From assembly GCA_903870305.1 (NCBI GenBank), contig CAIQCM010000102.1, positions 1-16,061 on the forward strand: a DNA stretch of 16,061 nt, in the 5' to 3' direction. The stretch comes from an uncultured bacterium. Its GTDB lineage: Bacteria > Patescibacteriota > Patescibacteriia > CAIQCM01. Made by a program: the position numbers and the translations under genes. Positions 145 to 10,144 of this stretch are shown here, one piece after another (position 1 is the stretch's first letter; each line of letters begins with the position of its first letter). The notes beneath the pieces are model-generated. The model searched no databases and was not told where the DNA came from. It was given only the letters and a program-made list of their open reading frames with translations.

Positions 145-174
145 AAATCAAAATGTCCCGCTAAAAGCGGGACA
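145..174 (-). terminator. Rho-independent terminator after rnc
   Basis: 154-162 pairs with 166-174 as a perfect 9-bp stem (TGTCCCGCT / AGCGGGACA) with a 3-nt loop. On the minus strand it is followed by a T-rich run (TTTTGATTTT). It lies 40 nt after the rnc stop and before the pilT promoter, so it separates the two transcription units. Its core is nearly the same as the hairpin at 8771-8793. Confidence 0.7.
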
Positions 175-176
175 CT

Positions 177-211
177 GCCATTTGCCACAAGCCACATGCC
201 ACATGCCAAAT
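177..211. repeat. Heptanucleotide repeat array A, five units of GCCACAT type
   Basis: Five consecutive 7-mers read GCCATTT, GCCACAA, GCCACAT, GCCACAT, GCCAAAT. The GCCA half is invariant and the last three bases drift. The array fills the space between the rnc stop (214) and the terminator hairpin. It has no spacers or flanking palindromes that would suggest CRISPR. Confidence 0.85.
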
Positions 212-213
212 AA

Positions 214-915
214 TTACCACCCCTTTGCCTTGATCCCGTTCTCGGCCGCCTGAACCTGGGCTTCTTGTTTTGAGCTGCCCTCGCCTTCGGCGACCAGCTC
301 GTCGTTTAGGTACACGCCGATCTTAAACCACTTGTTGTGGTCCGGTCCTTTTTCATCGACAACCCGGTAGGTGGGTGTAACGCCGGCGACTTCCTGCGCC
401 GCTTCTTGAAAACGGCTCTTGGGGTCCAAGTAAAGCTTGTGTTCCAAAATATATGGCAGTTTGACCAAGACGCGCTCGGTGATGAATTTCTTGGACACAT
501 CATATCCCCCGTCCAAGTAGATCGCGCCGATGATCGATTCAAAAGCGTTCGCCAAAATATATTGCCGCGCTTTGGTGCCGGTATCCTTGCTCTCGCCGCG
601 CGAAAGAAAAAGATAATCCTCGGCGCCCATGTCCTTGCAAATGGCCGAGAGCGTATTGGCGTTGACCAGCGCCGCGCGCCAGTTGGTCATGTCGCCCTCC
701 GGGTTGGGATAATTATTGTGAAGATGCTCGGTTACAACAAGTTCGAGGACGGCATCGCCCAAAAACTCCAACCGCTCATTGTGCCCGAGGCGGAAGTCCG
801 GATGCTCGTTCAGGTACGATCGATGTACCATCGCTTGATTCAAGAGATCGATGTTTTTGAATTTAACGCCGAGCTTTTCTTCCAGCCCGGAAAAATCTTT
901 TTCTTCTGATGACAT
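214..915 (-). CDS. rnc: Ribonuclease III
   Basis: Double-strand-specific endoribonuclease that processes rRNA precursors and structured mRNAs, acting as a homodimer in the cytoplasm. The 233 residues have the usual bacterial size and two-domain order. The catalytic domain (about 1-155) carries the signature NERLEFLGD at 46-54, with metal-binding E47 and D54, and a second motif ending in FESIIGAIYLD with E126. A double-stranded RNA-binding domain follows (about 163-231, including the KQEAQVQAAENG helix). The residue matching E. coli Asp114 is Asn123 here. E126 (E. coli Glu117, the key catalytic residue) is kept, so activity is expected. It is last in the rpmF-nusB-rnc group and is followed by a clear hairpin terminator. 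No convincing Shine-Dalgarno precedes the ATG. Confidence 0.96.
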   Translation of the reverse strand: MSSEEKDFSGLEEKLGVKFKNIDLLNQAMVHRSYLNEHPDFRLGHNERLEFLGDAVLELVVTEHLHNNYPNPEGDMTNWRAALVNANTLSAICKDMGAEDYLFLSRGESKDTGTKARQYILANAFESIIGAIYLDGGYDVSKKFITERVLVKLPYILEHKLYLDPKSRFQEAAQEVAGVTPTYRVVDEKGPDHNKWFKIGVYLNDELVAEGEGSSKQEAQVQAAENGIKAKGW

Positions 916-925
916 ACGGACGCAC

Positions 926-960
926 CGAATGTCGAATATCGAATGTCTAATGTCGAATTA
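926..960. repeat. Heptanucleotide repeat array B, five units of CGAATGT type
   Basis: Five 7-mers in the nusB-rnc spacer read CGAATGT, CGAATAT, CGAATGT, CTAATGT, CGAATTA. Bases 941-958 are complementary to 995-1012 of array C with one mismatch, so B and C together could fold as a long imperfect hairpin in the mRNA between nusB and rnc. Confidence 0.85.
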
Positions 961-973
961 CCAACGCAAGGCG

Positions 974-1012
974 TCGGCGAATTAGTCATTAGTCATTAGA
1001 CATTAGACATTC
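974..1012. repeat. Heptanucleotide repeat array C, ATTAGTC/ATTAGAC units, inverted relative to B and D
   Basis: From 981 the units read ATTAGTC, ATTAGTC, ATTAGAC, ATTAGAC, then ATTC. On the minus strand this is the TAATGTC family found in arrays B and D. Its outer edge (974-983) reads TCGGCGAATT, the reverse complement of the AATTCGCCGA that ends array D. C and D are therefore inverted copies with the same boundary sequence, one on each side of nusB. Confidence 0.85.
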
Positions 1013-1028
1013 AAAAAATGTTAAGAAA

Positions 1029-1541
1029 TTATTCAGTTGGTGTTTGTACCGGTGCCTCATCAGCGATAACCGGCACATCTTCTTTTTTCTTTGGCACCGA
1101 CTTGTCAATTTCTTTCAATTCGCCGGCGGCGACCATATCCTTGAAGATCGCGCCGAGGACTCCGTTCACAAAACGGCCGGAGGACTCTCCGCCGAAGGTC
1201 TTGGCCAGCTCGATCGCTTCGTTGATCGCCACCTTCGAAGGAATGTTTGCGACCCACTTAAGCTCATAGACGCCAATGCGCAAAATATTGCGGTCAACGA
1301 CCGTGATCTGTTCAATAGGCCACTCAGGCGCGTAGTGCGTGATGATCCCGTCAATCTCCGCTTGGCGCGACAGCACGCCGTCGATCAGCTCCTTGATAAA
1401 CCCTTGGTCATCGTAGGTGGGCGCAAACTCGCTAATGCTATGACTGATAATTTCAGGCAAGGCCTCCGGAGAATTTTTCCGGAAGTCATATTGATAAAGC
1501 GCCTGCATGGCGATTGTGCGGCCGAGATGTCGATTAGACAT
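1029..1541 (-). CDS. nusB: Transcription antitermination factor NusB
   Basis: NusB binds boxA RNA together with ribosomal protein S10 (NusE) and supports antitermination in rRNA operons. The all-helical NusB fold is clear: N-terminal [13 protein letters not shown] (8-20), central [12 protein letters not shown] (83-94) and the hallmark [12 protein letters not shown]...[11 protein letters not shown] (106-132). The family core ends near residue 140. The remaining 30 residues form a charged, Pro/Thr-rich tail ([20 protein letters not shown]...) with no obvious fold. The gene sits between rpmF and rnc, with heptamer arrays in both spacers. No Shine-Dalgarno precedes the ATG, and the first codons (ATGTCTAATCGACAT) themselves resemble the heptamer family. 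Confidence 0.96.
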
Positions 1542-1552
1542 AGACGAAAGAG

Positions 1553-1592
1553 CGAATGACTAATGTCGAATGTCGAATGTCGAATTCGCCGA
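1553..1592. repeat. Heptanucleotide repeat array D, five units of CGAATGT type, upstream of nusB
   Basis: The units read CGAATGA, CTAATGT, CGAATGT, CGAATGT, CGAATTC and run into a GCCGATGACC flank. The array fills the spacer between the rpmF stop (1602) and the nusB start (1541). It is the inverted counterpart of array C and shares the AATTCGCCGA boundary. Confidence 0.85.
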
Positions 1593-1601
1593 TGACCAAA
1601 T

Positions 1602-1799
1602 TTACTTAGCGGTCTTTTTGACCGCCTTGGCTTTGGTCACTTGACGACCCTGATAGGTGCCGCAAAAGGCGCAGGCCGTGTGCGGACGCACCGGTTTGGC
1701 GCACTTCGGGCACTTGGTAAGCTGGGCCGGAGTAAGCGCAAAATGCGCCGCGCGGCGGCGTTTGTGAGAAGATGTTCGGCGATGGCCTGGTAATCCCAT
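1602..1799 (-). CDS. rpmF: 50S ribosomal protein L32
   Basis: A small basic large-subunit ribosomal protein. The 65 residues show the L32 N-terminus (MGLPGHRRTSSHKRRRAAHF, the usual start being MAVPKxxxSxxRxxxRR) and a zinc ribbon with Cys30, Cys33, Cys43 and Cys46 (CPKC...CAFC), so this is the zinc-binding form. A Lys-rich tail ends the protein. It is probably first in a unit with nusB and rnc. A strong promoter lies immediately upstream and the leader would be only about 8 nt, with no Shine-Dalgarno. Confidence 0.95.
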   Translation of the reverse strand: MGLPGHRRTSSHKRRRAAHFALTPAQLTKCPKCAKPVRPHTACAFCGTYQGRQVTKAKAVKKTAK

Positions 1800-1994: not shown

Positions 1995-4460
1995 TCAAAC
2001 GATGGTGACCGACGAGAGTGTGTCTTTTTCTTCCTTAAAGCGCATGATGCGCACGCCTTGGGTGGCGCGGCCGATCACCCGAATTTCTTTAAGCGAAAGG
2101 CGGATGACCTGACCGTGGCCGGAAATGGCGACGATGTCGCGCTCGTCGTGAGCCGAAACCACGAAGCCGGTAACGACCTCGCCGGTTTTTGCCGTCACTT
2201 CGGCGGTCTTTATTCCGGTGCCTCCTCGGCCTTGCAAACGATATTCTTTAAGGTTGGTGCGCTTGCCAAAGCCGTTGGCCATGACGACCATGAGCTCCAG
2301 TATTCCCTTTTTAACTTCTTCTTGCGAAACCACGTCCATGCCGACGACCGCGTCGCCGCGGCGCAAATTGATCCCGCGCACGCCGGAAGCGGTGCGGCCC
2401 ATGGGACGAACGTCCTTTTCTTCAAAGCGGATAGACATGCCTTTCGCCGTCACGATCGCGATCTCATCCTTGCCGCACGATGGGCGGACGTATTCGAGCG
2501 AATCCTGTTCGCGCAGTTTGATGGCGATGAGGCCGCTGCGGCGCACCGCGGCGAATTCCGCGATCTCGGTCTTTTTAATCACACCCTCGCGGGTCACCAT
2601 GATCAAGTACTTGGCGTCCGGCATGTCGGAGACCGGCAAAATGGCCGTCACCTTTTCGCCGGGAGCGAGTTGAAGGAAGTTCACGAGCGCCTGACCCTTA
2701 GCCGTGCGCGAGGCCGCCGGAATGTCATAGGCCTTAAGCTGGAAGGCGCGGCCGCGGGAAGTGAAGAACAGCACGTCGGCATGGGTTGAGGTGACGAACA
2801 ATTGTTCAACCATGTCATCGTCTTTGGTGGCGACGCCGATCACGCCTTTGCCGCCGCGGCCTTGCGCGTGGAAAGTGTCGGGCGGAATGCGCTTTACATA
2901 ACCGTCGGCGGTGATGATGACCATCGTTGATTCATCGGGAATGACGTCTTCCATGGAGAATTCTTTTACGCCGTGGGCGACGACCTGCGTGCGCCGTTCG
3001 TCGCCGTATTTTTCCCGAAGGGCGACGACCTCGTCGCGGACAACGGTTAAAATGCGCTTGGGCGAAGCGAGAATGGCGGTCAATTCTTTTATTATCTTTA
3101 TTTTTTCCGCGAGCTCGGTCTCCACCCGCAAGCGCTCGAGGTTCGCAAGCTGCTGCAGGCGCATTTCCAAAATGGCCACCGTCTGCGGATCGGTGAGCTT
3201 GAACGACTTCATGAGGTTTATCTTGGCCTCGTCCTTATCAGCCGACTTTTTGATCGTCGCAATCACTTTGTCGATGTGCAAAATGGCGATCGAGAGCCCT
3301 TCCAAAATATGAGCGCGATCCTTGGCCTTCTTAAGGTCAAACTCCGTGCGCTTTCTGACGATTACCTGGCGATGCTTCACATATTCGTCGAGCAAGGTCT
3401 TCAAATTAAGCACGCGCGGCTGAATGCCGTCCACGAGCGACAGCATGTTCACGTGAAAGGTCTCCTGAAGCTGGGTGAGCTGGAACAGGCGGTTCAACAC
3501 CTTCTTGGGGTAGGCGTCCTTTTTGAGTTCGATGACCACCCGCACGCCGTCTTTGTTAGATTCGTCGCGGATGTCGCGGATGCCGTCAATTTTTTTGTCC
3601 CTGACCAGATCCGCGATCTTCTCCAAGAGCGTCGCCTTGTTAACCTGATACGGCACTTCGTTTACGATGATCCTGAAAGCGCCATTACTTTCTTCAACGA
3701 TCTCGGTTTTTGCCCGCATGACAATCGGGCCGCGGCCGGTCACATAGGTCGCCAAAATATCTTTCTTGTTGTAAATAATGCCGCCGGTCGGGAAATCCGG
3801 GCCGGTGATGACCGTGGTGAGGTCCTCCACCGAGCAGTCGGGCTCGTCGATAACCTTAATGATCGCGTTCGCGACCTCGGTAAGATTGTGCGGCGGAATA
3901 TTGGTGGCCATGCCCACCGCAATGCCGACGGTGCCGTTCAAGAGCAGGTTGGGAAGTTTGCCCGGGAGCACGACCGGCTCTTGGTGCGAGCCGTCAAAGT
4001 TGGGCGTAAAAGGAATGGTGTCTTTGTCGATGTCGAAAAGCAATTCTTCGGCAATGGGCGAAAGCTTGGCCTCAGTGTAACGCATGGCCGCCGCGCCGTC
4101 GCCGTCCATCGAGCCGAAGTTGCCTTGGCCGGTGACGAGCGGATAGCGCATGGAAAAATCCTGCGCCATGCGGACCATTGATTCGTAGACGGCCGAGTCG
4201 CCGTGCGGGTGGTATTTGCCAAGCACTTCGCCGACCACGGTGGCGGACTTCCTGAACTTGCCGCTCGCTTTAAGCCCCACCGACCACATTGCATAAAGAA
4301 TGCGGCGATGCACCGGCTTCATGCCGTCACGGACGTCCGGAAGAGCGCGCGCCACGATGACCGACATGGCATAGTCGAGGTACGACTCCTGCATTTCGGC
4401 GACAATGGGCCGCGACTCAATGTGTCCGATGGCGAATTCTTTGGGGTGTTTTTCTGACAT
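1995..4460 (-). CDS. gyrA: DNA gyrase subunit A
   Basis: Breakage-reunion subunit of DNA gyrase, which introduces negative supercoils as an A2B2 complex with GyrB. The 821 residues have normal length. The N-terminal winged-helix region carries HRRILYAM (51-58) and the active-site tyrosine Y128 in [12 protein letters not shown]. The quinolone-determining region reads [10 protein letters not shown] (84-93), with Ser89 (E. coli Ser83) kept and Glu93 in place of E. coli Asp87, a common natural state. The C-terminal beta-pinwheel contains the GyrA box QGRGGKG (533-539), which distinguishes GyrA from ParC. The gene starts 1 nt after the stop of the small membrane-protein gene, implying translational coupling, and ends in TGA. 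Confidence 0.97.
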
Positions 4461-4773: not shown

Positions 4774-5424
4774 TTAATCGTTCTCTAGGATAACAACCTT
4801 GGTCTCTTCCGCGGGCAGATCCTTTTTAACGGCCTTCCATTTAGCGACGCGTTCGGGACTCCCCGCCCCCATCTCTTTTAAGAACTTTTCAACCGGATCA
4901 TGTTTTTGTTTTGAGCCGGGAAGGGCGTAATGCATGGGGATCACGATGCGCGGCGAAAGCGCCGTCACTATTTCCACCGCCTGTTTCGCATTCAAGACCG
5001 TCTCACCGCCGACCGGAACAAGAAGAACGTCGATGTCCTCAAGAAGCTCGCGTGCGGCGTCGTCGAGCCCGGCGGCAAGGCCGCCAAGGTGAGCCACGCT
5101 GAGGTCCCCGACCTCGAAACGGTACAGAACGCCGCCGCCCGGCGCGTCGATGCCGTAGACGAAGAGCCCGCCCACTTCGTATTCGCCGGGGTTTTTGACG
5201 ATAAAAAGCTTTTTCTCGCCCGCGGCTTTGACCGCGTCAATATTGTTGTAAGCCGGAAGGTCGCGCGAGACCGCGACCACATCGGCGGCAAGATTTCGCG
5301 GAACTTTCAATCCCGACTCAATGCCAAAAGGATCAGTCACCAAATTGGCGACGGCATCGCCGTTCTTGGCTTCGATCGAGAAGCACGAAACTCCATGCCA
5401 GATGAATTGGATCGATGCGCTCAT
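4774..5424 (-). CDS. Metallo-beta-lactamase-fold protein (UlaG/COG2220-like) lacking most metal ligands
   Basis: A 216-residue protein with the overall pattern of small UlaG-like metallo-beta-lactamase-fold hydrolases: WHGVSCFSIE (9-18), VTDPFG (29-34), GEYEVGGLFVYGI (80-92), IDVLLVPVGG (131-140) and RIVIPMHY (159-166). The metal-binding HxHxDH segment expected at 54-59 reads RDLPAY, so its three His and the second Asp are gone. The usual HLGDLGH is HLGGLAA (112-118), losing a further Asp. His112 and His165 remain. I infer a non-catalytic or strongly changed protein. I chose the ATG at 5424 because GGGAG precedes it and family similarity begins there. An in-frame ATG at 5484 would add 20 unrelated residues lying over a likely promoter. 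Confidence 0.85.
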   Translation of the reverse strand: MSASIQFIWHGVSCFSIEAKNGDAVANLVTDPFGIESGLKVPRNLAADVVAVSRDLPAYNNIDAVKAAGEKKLFIVKNPGEYEVGGLFVYGIDAPGGGVLYRFEVGDLSVAHLGGLAAGLDDAARELLEDIDVLLVPVGGETVLNAKQAVEIVTALSPRIVIPMHYALPGSKQKHDPVEKFLKEMGAGSPERVAKWKAVKKDLPAEETKVVILEND

Positions 5425-5455
5425 AATATAAAAATTCTCCCGATTTCGAGGTATC

Positions 5456-5484
5456 AATTTAACACGACCGGCTTCCGCTGGCAA
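5456..5484 (-). promoter_or_regulatory. Possible internal promoter upstream of the MBL-fold gene
   Basis: On the minus strand TTGCCA (5484-5479) and TAAATT (5461-5456) are 17 bp apart. The predicted start near 5449 would give a leader of about 25 nt containing GGGAG before the 5424 ATG. The 77-bp gap here is the largest inside the gyrA operon, so a second entry point for transcription of the MBL-fold, membrane-protein and gyrA genes is plausible. A weak hairpin at the end of the preceding gene (ACCC/GGGT) could partly terminate the upstream message. Confidence 0.4.
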
Positions 5485-5501
5485 TGGATAAACCCCCTCT
5501 C

Positions 5502-6185
5502 TTAAAGGGTCTGATCATCCATGATATCAATATAATATTGGATCTCGTGGCTTATGTCGTCGAGCGACGGTAGGCGTTCGGCGTAAGCAAAGCCCTGGCG
5601 GAACATTTTGACCTTGTCGAGGATCTCGGAGCGCGACGACGGCGAGCGCGCGGCGAGCGCGGCAAGCTCGTCGATCTTCGCCCTAAGGGCGTGCTGTTTA
5701 TCCTTTTGGTCCGAGAGGATGAGTGCGAAGTCGTTCCGGCGCTCGAGCGCGATCATTTTTTCCATCTCTTCATGCACGCCGTCGTGGGCGTCAAGTTCGG
5801 CGGCGACGATCTCCCGCTTCACATCGGCATCGAAGAACTGCTCAAACTTCGAGCCGTCGCGCACCGATTCAATGTTCCCTCCCCCCGCGACGAACTTATC
5901 GAGCGTGAGCCGCGCCGGTTCGGAAAGTTTTTGCCGCATAGCTTCGCGCTCGCGTGACTCGCCAAATATTTTATAAAACTGTTCGTAGGCCTCGCAATAC
6001 GGCCACAGCTCGTATCCAAATTCGATAAGCTCGGCTTCAATCGCCTCAAGCGTGGCGTTGGGATCGCGCTCGAGCGCGGCGATGGCATTCTCCATCTGCT
6101 GATGCCGCTCCTGCGGAAAAACGCCCGGCAAACGATGAATGACGGTTTTAATGAGATCGATGGTGGCTTGATATTGGTGCGGCAT
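5502..6185 (-). CDS. Conserved-looking cytoplasmic helical protein of unknown function
   Basis: A 227-residue soluble protein with no signal peptide or membrane segment. The sequence is almost entirely predicted helix, rich in Glu, Ala, Leu and Lys/Arg. The central part (about 125-175, including AELDAHDGVHEEMEKMIALE and LSDQKDKQHALRAKIDELAA) could form a coiled coil. Aromatic clusters occur in the first half (ELWPYCEAYEQFYKIFG, 59-75). I do not recognise a family and see no catalytic signature. It starts 11 nt after the preceding 203-codon gene on the same strand, and the frame is free of stops with ordinary codon use, so the gene call is firm although the function is unknown. No Shine-Dalgarno is visible. 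Confidence 0.8.
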   Translation of the reverse strand: MPHQYQATIDLIKTVIHRLPGVFPQERHQQMENAIAALERDPNATLEAIEAELIEFGYELWPYCEAYEQFYKIFGESREREAMRQKLSEPARLTLDKFVAGGGNIESVRDGSKFEQFFDADVKREIVAAELDAHDGVHEEMEKMIALERRNDFALILSDQKDKQHALRAKIDELAALAARSPSSRSEILDKVKMFRQGFAYAERLPSLDDISHEIQYYIDIMDDQTL

Positions 6186-8797: not shown

Positions 8798-10144
8798 TCA
8801 TGGGACGATCGGATCGCCGATGCGGTAATTGACGAAGAAAGCATCACTTACATCATCGATCTGTTTGTTCCAATGGTCGCCAAAAAGAACCCGTGCGATC
8901 GCCTCAGTGCTCACCCAGCGGAGTACGCCGCCGCGGGAAACGACATAGACGCGCGGATCCGATTGGATCTTGATCATTTTCTTGCCGGGACGGTAGGTGA
9001 CGTTGCCGCCCAATGGTATCTCTGCGAGGTCGGCGTTGGAAATGACCTGCACGCCGCCAAATCCGTCATACCACGACAAGAAAATGGAACTGTTCACGAA
9101 GACGTAGCGCTTGCCATCGGCGCCGCAGAAATAAACGGCCGGGAGCGACCCTTTAATCAGCGTGCCGGAAACGCAGTTTGGGGTTGTTGGTTGTTGGTTG
9201 TTGGCGGTTGGAGCCGCTAAACCCTTGTCGGTATTGATGTCGGGGGTGCTCACGATGGCGATGGCGGGCGTATAGGCGCCGGTCGCGGTCGGGTCAACGA
9301 CGGGGGGCGGAAGGATTGGCGGGTTGTTGTCAGCCGGGGACTGATCCGCCTTTGGCGGAGTTATTGGTTCCGGATTGACCGCTGCAGTATTGCCGATGAT
9401 CGTAAAGGTGCCATTAGAGAGCGCCGAGGCGAGCAATCCGCCGTTCGAAGCGTATCCTTCAATCTTTATCTTCCCGAGCGTTGTCGGGCTGTTGGGAACC
9501 GTCCAGCTTAATGACGCAGCCGCGGCGTTGTCGGAGATCGTTGTCCAGCTGGCACCGCTGTCGATTGAATAAGAGACCTTGTATTTGGTGAAGGCGCCGT
9601 TAGCTGACGTCCAGTCGAGACCGATCGTCGAACCGGCATTGTAACTGCCTCCGCCGTCCGGCGTCTGGATTATGATGGAGGGGATGTAGACGATCGCCGG
9701 GCCGCCGCCTCCACCACCGCCGCCGGTTTGCGGTGATGATGGTCGCCAAGTCGTCTGGACACAGTTAGGACTACAGCTTGAAGGAAAATCGATGGTCGAA
9801 ACGATGTTGCCGGTAGCCGTACCGGTGAATTGACCGGAGGAATTGATTGTGACGCCAGCGAAATTTATCCAGCCAACATTTTTTCCCCAAGCGTAGCCGG
9901 ACAATGAACCTGACACGTTATTGCCTACTCCGTTCAAATCTATCCAGCCGTAATTGCCTCCCCATGCCTGCCCCACTAGGCCGGTATCCGTAACGCCGGC
10001 TTGACTGAAGTCAACCCAGCCGATTTGCGGTGACCAAGCAAAATTATGGGGAGAGCTAATCGTTCCAGTGCCAGCTAGGGCGGCACCGACACCGAATATC
10101 ATGCTCAACAAAATGGCAAAAATTGGAAGAAAAAATCTTTTCAT
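8798..10144 (-). CDS. Secreted GWIxF-repeat protein with Ig-like domain and C-terminal duplicated domain
   Basis: A 448-residue exported protein. Residues 1-24 are a signal peptide (MKRFFLPIFAILLSMIFGVG then AALA, cleavage after A24). Three degenerate repeats follow: AWSPQIGWVDF (36-46), AWGGNYGWIDL (60-70) and AWGKNVGWINF (85-95). An eight-Gly linker (141-148) leads to a beta-rich Ig/fibronectin-like domain (about 155-250). A Pro-rich, probably extended stretch (255-325) follows, then a C-terminal domain (about 328-448) with two similar halves, each with VYxx...Gxx(R)(Y/W)V (about 336-358 and 399-421). I associate both the GWIxF repeats and this C-terminal domain with CPR surface proteins; the function is unknown. 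The ATG overlaps the stop of the giant upstream gene as ATGA, so translation is probably coupled. A heptamer array lies in the linker. Confidence 0.9.
   Translation of the reverse strand: MKRFFLPIFAILLSMIFGVGAALAGTGTISSPHNFAWSPQIGWVDFSQAGVTDTGLVGQAWGGNYGWIDLNGVGNNVSGSLSGYAWGKNVGWINFAGVTINSSGQFTGTATGNIVSTIDFPSSCSPNCVQTTWRPSSPQTGGGGGGGGPAIVYIPSIIIQTPDGGGSYNAGSTIGLDWTSANGAFTKYKVSYSIDSGASWTTISDNAAAASLSWTVPNSPTTLGKIKIEGYASNGGLLASALSNGTFTIIGNTAAVNPEPITPPKADQSPADNNPPILPPPVVDPTATGAYTPAIAIVSTPDINTDKGLAAPTANNQQPTTPNCVSGTLIKGSLPAVYFCGADGKRYVFVNSSIFLSWYDGFGGVQVISNADLAEIPLGGNVTYRPGKKMIKIQSDPRVYVVSRGGVLRWVSTEAIARVLFGDHWNKQIDDVSDAFFVNYRIGDPIVP
9183..9210. repeat. Heptanucleotide array E inside the coding region of the GWIxF protein
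   Basis: Three perfect GTTGTTG units (9183-9203) and one diverged copy (GCGGTTG) encode the Pro/Thr/Asn/Gln-rich linker at about residues 312-321. Since 7 is not a multiple of 3, gain or loss of one unit would shift the frame and remove the C-terminal domain. Confidence 0.8.

Follow-up and report, generated by a model that had tools for sequence, protein, structure and literature searches.

Period-7 arrays and heptad hairpins populate the intergenic spacers of a patescibacterial genome, possibly through slippage with a step near seven nucleotides

Why should the spacers around two housekeeping genes of an uncultured patescibacterium be filled with short tandem arrays that share a repeat length of seven bases while the repeated word changes? 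The question arises from a 16,061-base stretch of DNA (the window), which is contig C102 of a genome assembled into 160 contigs totalling 947,774 bases. In this stretch the initial annotation had noted four heptanucleotide arrays around rnc and nusB and had proposed a process that generates 7-bp repeats rather than copies of one element. We find that the observation is real and beyond chance, and that the arrays are a variant of the known bacterial heptanucleotide repeats, in hairpin form. The explanation that we tentatively favour, and to which we give slightly less than an even chance, is that the arrays belong to a set of intergenic heptad elements found throughout the genome, and that these arise by slippage, in steps of about 7 nt, on hairpins that are themselves dispersed.

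Period 7 prevails across the genome. The sample consisted of the window and 61 contigs, of which 19 were masked, leaving 43 sequences (323,889 bases). Contigs were drawn at even number steps, with the exceptions of C5 (extra), C157 (match-bearing) and C107 (transposase gene); the match-bearing C34, C35 and C75 fell within the even series and the match-bearing C97 was omitted. With 17 of 21 positions matching, 84 arrays had period 7. Periods 3, 6, 9 and 12 gave 3, 5, 2 and 4 arrays, all 14 of them coding according to crude gene calls; period 14, a multiple of seven, gave 41, period 15 gave 6, period 18 gave 4 and longer periods few, and none was found at periods 4, 5, 8, 10, 11 or 13. A stricter threshold (18/21) left 47 arrays at period 7, 3 at period 6, 2 at period 3 and none at periods 4, 5 or 8–13. 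No lag-7 array appeared in ten shuffled sets of the same sample, and none of period 7 in 200,000 bases of Escherichia coli K-12. Sixty-six of the 84 arrays were noncoding, as judged by the crude gene caller that assigned 46,246 of the 323,889 bases to noncoding DNA, and 34 distinct majority units occurred among them. The excess over periods 6, 8 and 9 that the initial annotation had suggested looking for is thus strong (84 against 5, 0 and 2) and concentrated in spacers; the outcomes that it had named as refutation, the lack of such an excess or arrays unique to this locus, did not occur, as the arrays are genome-wide.

In the window, a lag scan (18/21 matches) gave five segments at lag 7, two at lag 3 and one each at lags 6, 14, 24 and 30, with none at lags 2, 4, 5 or 8–13; lag-7 segments were absent from 100 dinucleotide shuffles of the window. 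Tandem Repeats Finder (TRF) recovered the four noted arrays with scores of 45–52, together with a fifth, missing from the original list, that it placed at 9182–9204. The names given to the flanking genes were upheld by Pfam as RNase III and NusB, with L32 and GyrA beyond them, all on the minus strand. The features are as follows.
183–208, no strand assigned: array 1, about 3.7 heptamers TGCCACA, downstream of rnc (TRF).
926–958, no strand assigned: array 2, about 4.7 heptamers CGAATGT, first hairpin arm (TRF; partner 20/24 complementary).
981–1011, no strand assigned: array 3, about 4.4 heptamers ATTAGAC (reverse complement GTCTAAT), second hairpin arm (TRF; partner 21/24).
1553–1585, no strand assigned: array 4, about 4.7 heptamers CGAATGT (TRF).
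927–1012, minus strand: heptad hairpin occupying most of the 113-base nusB–rnc spacer, with 27 Watson–Crick pairs, 1 G–U pair and 5 other mismatches on the gene-sense strand.
About 959–980, no strand assigned: hairpin loop, with an inner G+C-rich stem in the RNA fold.
9176–9213, no strand assigned: fifth period-7 array (GGTTGTT), within the open reading frame 8798–10144 (TRF, lag scan).
152–176, minus strand: terminator-like hairpin adjoining array 1 (terminator-like call).
214–915, minus strand: rnc, RNase III (Pfam PF14622, PF00636, PF00035).
1029–1541, minus strand: nusB (Pfam PF01029).
1602–1799, minus strand: rpmF, ribosomal protein L32 (Pfam PF01783).
1995–4460, minus strand: GyrA gene.

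The four arrays therefore stand where they had been placed, but not as four separate arrays, since arrays 2 and 3 pair as the two sides of a single hairpin. The arm units are nearly one word on opposite strands (CGAATGT and ACATTAG, the latter equal to CTAATGT). Region 920–1020 folded at −37.5 kcal/mol as minus-strand RNA (z −6.79) and at −20.0 as gene-strand DNA (z −5.35), and in each case none of 200 shuffles was as good. No terminator-like site was called at 926–1012, the pattern of an intrinsic terminator (a G+C-rich stem and then a U-run) being absent, and no T-run follows the hairpin on either strand. Arrays 1 and 4 are single: at the partner threshold applied, nothing within 130 bases pairs with either. 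The fifth array translates as NNQQPTTPN, three units making 21 bases or 7 codons.

Pairing of this kind is common in the genome. In the first 202,243 bases of the sample, 28 of 49 arrays had an inverted partner (≥18/24 complementary within 130 bases), compared with 2 of 98 controls; partner scores were bimodal, with unpaired arrays near background, and, judged by eye, one more array (L085:951–1039) forms a self-contained hairpin. Long hairpins sought blind to period numbered 22 in 211,249 bases, 13 of them with arms of best period 7, and a looser rule gave 39 hairpin elements in this genome and 8 in the sample of a same-genus genome, G001. The commoner form has two opposed arms of about 4–5 heptamers each around a loop, is able to fold as a long, imperfect hairpin and spans 65–170 bases in total, mostly 70–100; single arrays are the other form. 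Among 24 elements compared within the genome, several are dispersed near-copies: L244:4786–4875 and L024:17168–17265 are 86% identical over 85 bases, L028 and L015 89% over 62 bases, and CATGTTT-type hairpins 68–80% over 80–97 bases. The flanks of such copies disagree and the loops are more variable than the arms. The proposal of a process with changing units therefore holds, but its exclusion of copying does not, because whole hairpins are dispersed as near-copies.

Comparison with G001 shows that the word can differ where the period is kept. The NusB proteins of the two genomes are 91% identical and the main DNA matches about 70–85% identical; G001 contigs were chosen through three contigs of the window's genome and through element matches. 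Orthologous G001 spacers were obtained for 16 of 37 elements with flanks. A period-7 array (16/21 matches) was present in 5 of the 16, and none of the 16 carried a period of 5, 6, 8, 9, 10 or 11. The window hairpin is among the five, diverged and with its unit retained; the units of the other four sites, read by eye, differ: CTTTTAG is matched by GGATTAG at one site, AATATCT by a TTTTAGG type at two and, in the weakest case, GGAATTA by NNNTTAA (L024:17170). In the clearest case (L015:309–381 against L110), every heptad retains TTAG in the same register, and its remaining three letters are different between the species in either arm. A fixed period with a changing unit, first remarked on at this locus, is thus seen genome-wide, concentrated in spacers, and between genomes at four of five retained sites. 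Arrays 1 and 4 of the window have no period-7 array in the orthologous G001 spacers, and a stem resembling the 152–176 hairpin is also found in G001. In the reverse direction, 3 of 10 G001 elements were found in the window's genome, at the same sites.

Similar arrays occur well beyond this genus. In GTDB genomes, the pattern ATTAGNN × 4 gave at least 115 stretches, 80 of them listed; among the matches listed were Cyanobacteria, Bacteroidetes, Acidobacteria, Planctomycetes, Chloroflexi, Proteobacteria and others. As these loci were picked by a period-7 pattern, their period counts are no unbiased survey, and the reversed-pattern control of the scan is no null, since a number of the named genomes are themselves rich in GATT heptads. 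We also used stretches taken regardless of arrays from ten named genomes (379,747 bases), the genomes themselves having been chosen for a heptad match. These held 53 arrays at period 7, 38 at period 14, 9 at period 8, 1 at period 6 and none at 4, 5, 9, 10 or 11, and 24 of the 53 had an inverted partner (control, 0/53). The period-7 arrays came from Moorena (21), an acidobacterium (15), Scytonema (6), Microcoleus (5), a chloroflexote (5) and Hymenobacter (1), with none in the sampled stretches of Flavobacterium, Flagellimonas, Rubripirellula and Pseudoalteromonas. Nineteen usable 20-kb stretches from relatives in the same class gave 8 arrays at period 7 and 1 at period 8 (18/21); at 17/21 there were 10 at period 7, half of them in G029, and 0–7 at other periods.

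In some members of the phylum the same word recurs more often at period 8. Among 192 genomes, TTAG occurs three times running at period 7 in 92 and at period 8 in 30, with 1,505 and 193 overlapping matches, respectively (hand-copied counts). Period 8 exceeds period 7 in G204 (19 against 0), G139 (15 against 1), G131, G091, G185 and others. Octamer arrays were present in five of six genomes, in stretches chosen by their matches, and absent from the sixth (G172); examples include TTAGCTTG and TTAGTCAA, and such arrays lie in G204, G139, G131, G184 and G091 (L314–L327). Some of the octamer genomes have fewer heptamers of the same word or none, and by eye the octamers of G131 make up a hairpin. 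Stretches of G204 chosen regardless of matches (47,602 bases) gave no period-8 array except a CT run; a strict switch of lineages from seven to eight is thereby weakened, period-8 arrays being nearly absent from unselected stretches.

How the units within an array resemble one another points to the manner of growth. Across 89 long arrays of the named genomes, with ends trimmed, identity fell from 0.924 at a distance of 7 to 0.906, 0.881, 0.861 and 0.851 at 14, 21, 28 and 35; in 41 untrimmed arrays of the window's genome it fell from 0.777 (distance 7) to 0.559 (distance 28). Neighbouring units are thus more alike than distant ones, which fits stepwise duplication of neighbours and not repeated copying from one fixed template. 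An alternation of units every 14 bp is seen in individual arrays and is not general, lag 14 scoring above lag 7 in 9 of the 41 arrays. We propose that units are duplicated and deleted in tandem as the DNA replicates, preferably in steps of about 7 nt (8 nt in certain lineages), and that this copying of neighbours would expand and homogenize each arm. Point mutations would spread through the arm in the same way, so that the word drifts and the period stays. A hairpin on single-stranded DNA would promote the misalignment, and entire hairpins are copied to other loci as well. Effects on the cell, through mRNA 3′ ends or processing, would probably be secondary.

Several results weigh against slippage. 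Outside arrays, lag 7 is not enriched among exact short duplications, which number 7 at lag 6, 9 at lag 7 and 17 at lag 8 when all lags are treated alike; the birth of arrays from 7-bp duplications in plain sequence is therefore unsupported, and we discarded it. The presence of MutS (42 of 192 genomes) is unassociated with heptads once families are controlled: the raw trend (p 0.08–0.18) gives a median p of 0.8 with one genome per family, and loss of MutS was set aside as a cause. Eleven of the 16 shared sites have no period-7 array in G001, and the five that do are weakly above the rate for all G001 spacers of at least 40 bases (12/102; p 0.054). G001 is the poorer genome, with 12 arrays in 189,414 bases (17/21) despite contigs chosen through element matches, and its 12 long hairpins from the period-blind search have a best period of 7 in one case only. 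The four unit differences could also reflect replacement by another element, and, the comparison being at the level of genus rather than strain, no 7-bp step was seen happening.

The main rival, which we consider possible but doubtful, is that a transposase of the single-strand type (Y1, HUH), for example a REP-associated tyrosine transposase (RAYT), mobilizes the hairpins in trans, in the manner of repetitive extragenic palindromic (REP) elements, the units being element families and a change of unit being element replacement. The Y1_Tnp domain (PF01797) is present in 93 of the 192 phylum genomes, and period-7 TTAG arrays are commoner where it occurs (odds ratio 5.6, p 2.6e-8), in a test that covered one transposase family, Y1. 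The association persists with one genome per family (median p 1e-4) and within the 19 families that hold both states (87 genomes; permutation p 0.0028). A Y1 match is found in 19 of the 24 TTAG-richest genomes, but not in the other five (G095, G158, G173, G191 and G259). Near-copies with unrelated flanks fit a moving element, as does a CATGTTT-type hairpin of G001 that sits within an alignment gap (87 bases there, 4 in the window's genome, G000). Loops, by contrast, differ within a family while arms agree, and mobility leaves both the period of 7 and the single arrays unexplained.

The genes themselves give a divided picture. G000 and G001 have one Y1_Tnp match each. In G000, a heptad hairpin (L244:4796–4865) lies 100 bases past the 3′ end of the Y1 gene (4965–5648) and before a tRNA-Val gene, but the palindrome that abuts and interrupts this gene is GCCGAGGCGAAGCCTCGGC, which is not a heptad hairpin; the palindrome at the G001 gene is CCTCGAGGCTTAGCCTCGAGG, on a contig without a period-7 array. 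Both genes stand amid several palindrome copies, of the GCCGAGGC type in G000 (L244:4943–6330, one copy inside the gene) and of the CCTCGAGGC type in G001 (L245:1767–2590). The heptad elements resemble REP palindromes and bacterial interspersed mosaic elements (BIMEs) with their RAYTs in being intergenic, dispersed hairpins in a genome with a Y1 gene, and differ in that the Y1 gene is abutted by a non-heptad palindrome; REP and BIME palindromes are not known to have heptad arms. Simple membership of the RAYT–REP system was not accepted, because other palindromes abut the Y1 genes, and the system is retained as a rival because of the Y1 association and the heptad hairpin near the gene.

Two further types of long hairpin are dispersed in these genomes. 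Elements at L111:3712–3830, L111:6166–6284, L109:4718–4828, L123:4878–4990 and L124:11101–11215 in G001 and at L095:7505–7622 in G000 share a similar loop of about 60 nt (AGACGAGGACTGT...GCGAGTTCCGCAG) in either orientation; their arms are well or perfectly paired, and the outer letters vary between copies. These may be a structured RNA with a covarying stem, or an insertion into hairpin loops; the five sources (L111, L109, L123, L124, L095) had no Rfam match except tRNAs. A second long hairpin, AATGCATGCGAATG ... ATTCGCATGCATTAGT and variants, occurs in both species and is not of period 7 (L089:5484–5614, L110:3503–3634, L117:2984–3094, L032:803–909 and L085:6–105).

Placement of the arrays bears on a second rival, which we hold to be improbable: selection for a function at the RNA level, as 3′-end, processing or translation elements between co-transcribed genes. 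Among called spacers of at least 30 bases, again from crude gene calls, those between same-strand genes carried an array in 38 of 132 cases, compared with 2 of 31 for convergent and 3 of 28 for divergent pairs (same-strand against other, Fisher p 0.0014); the count covers 52 of the 84 arrays, the others being at contig ends, called coding or unplaced. This preference, low in divergent spacers, leaves promoter tuning of the kind known for Haemophilus hmw, to which the arrays had been likened, unsupported. It would suit an RNA role, as would the strong fold of the window hairpin as sense RNA. A further point in favour is that most TAACTGA repeats of the Maribeggiatoa genome are found directly upstream of start codons (PMC4679880). 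Selection on RNA would favour G–U pairs over A–C mismatches, however, and the sense strands of elements of both genomes in same-strand contexts hold 34 G–U pairs and 72 A–C mismatches, a result that opposes the prediction; as family copies are not independent, we do not claim the A–C surplus itself. Two of the three window elements lack a period-7 counterpart in G001, and the window hairpin lacks both a terminator-like call and a T-run. No Rfam match was found for elements in the 11 sources searched, nor in the window at the gathering score; seven tRNA matches all lay in 10 other sources of the same search.

Least probable, and very much so in our judgement, is an enzyme with a 7-nt stagger that would nick, fill in and rejoin at the feet of hairpins and so duplicate any 7 bases at the cut, a variant enzyme giving period 8: the fixed period with many units, the true octamer arrays with their period-8 excess for the same TTAG word in some genomes, and the Y1 association speak for it, whereas two-copy 7-bp duplications outside arrays are not in excess, period-8 arrays are sparse (a CT run alone in unselected G204 stretches) and we know of no enzyme that makes staggered 7-nt duplications at hairpin feet.

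Heptanucleotide repeats are already known from other bacteria. The short tandemly repeated repetitive (STRR) sequences of heterocystous cyanobacteria are short intergenic tandem heptanucleotide arrays; their published sets comprise a few fixed units, whereas 34 majority units occur here. The likeness to cyanobacterial repeats that had been drawn for this locus proved apt, as Scytonema, Microcoleus and Moorena have both single and paired period-7 arrays. Heptamers prevail among prokaryotic simple repeats, for which slippage with a 7-nt polymerase contact has been proposed, an account credited to Mrazek et al. 2007 in PMC4679880. These long simple sequence repeats (LSSRs) are likewise heptamers with a proposed 7-nt-step slippage; as cited there they are longer-than-chance repeats, and the citation mentions neither arms of hairpins, nor arrays that are short and degenerate, nor a different word at sites shared between genomes. 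Heptameric G4 repeats of Xanthomonas and Nostoc are the subject of PMC4692102. Like LSSRs, the arrays of this genome show an excess of period 7 within periods 5–11, with multiples of three coding and the others mainly outside genes.

As PMC4679880 describes, TAACTGA direct repeats of Beggiatoaceae, cyanobacteria and Bacteroidetes are mostly intergenic, with other heptamers mixed in, and differences between Cyanothece strains are mostly 7-nt increments. The arrays described here are also mostly intergenic heptamer arrays; the TAACTGA system differs in having one dominant unit, in being direct and not inverted (bar one case) and in its position before start codons in Maribeggiatoa. A further parallel is the P6b stem-loop of the Nostoc tRNA-Leu(UAA) intron (PMC4476775), which is built on heptanucleotide motifs whose NNTGAGT class has repeatedly been replaced by TDNGATT with the structure kept. 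Here too the stem is made of complementary degenerate heptamers (28/49 arrays paired) and the unit class is replaced with the stem kept (4/5 sites, a few cases with units read by eye); unlike P6b, as described there a single group I intron site with two motif classes, the elements are genome-wide, intergenic and of many units. The window hairpin, moreover, sits between rnc and nusB and not in a tRNA-Leu group I intron, and the window has no Rfam match. The earlier work on heptamers, TAACTGA repeats and P6b shows that the kind is already known. To this the present analysis adds hairpins of heptads spread throughout a genome of 0.95 Mb, different words at several loci that two species share, arrays of octamers in certain lineages and the co-occurrence with Y1. 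We found no description of heptad hairpins in the candidate phyla radiation (CPR) in the open-licence PMC literature, subscription papers lying outside the search.

Why bacterial tandem repeats prefer seven is, to our knowledge, unanswered. A bolder and, as it stands, unlikely idea is a sequence-blind repeat generator in bacteria whose step is set by a protein (mostly 7 nt, 8 in some lineages) and which would act on hairpins of single-stranded DNA, leaving the word free to change while the step is inherited; Y1 (HUH) transposases would be its first candidates. Concrete comparisons for what sets the step are offered by a small genome rich in arrays (about one per 4 kb read), by unit differences within a genus, by lineages in which the same word recurs as octamers and by a co-occurring gene family. 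The hairpins are also relevant to the annotation of streamlined genomes and to where their transcripts end.

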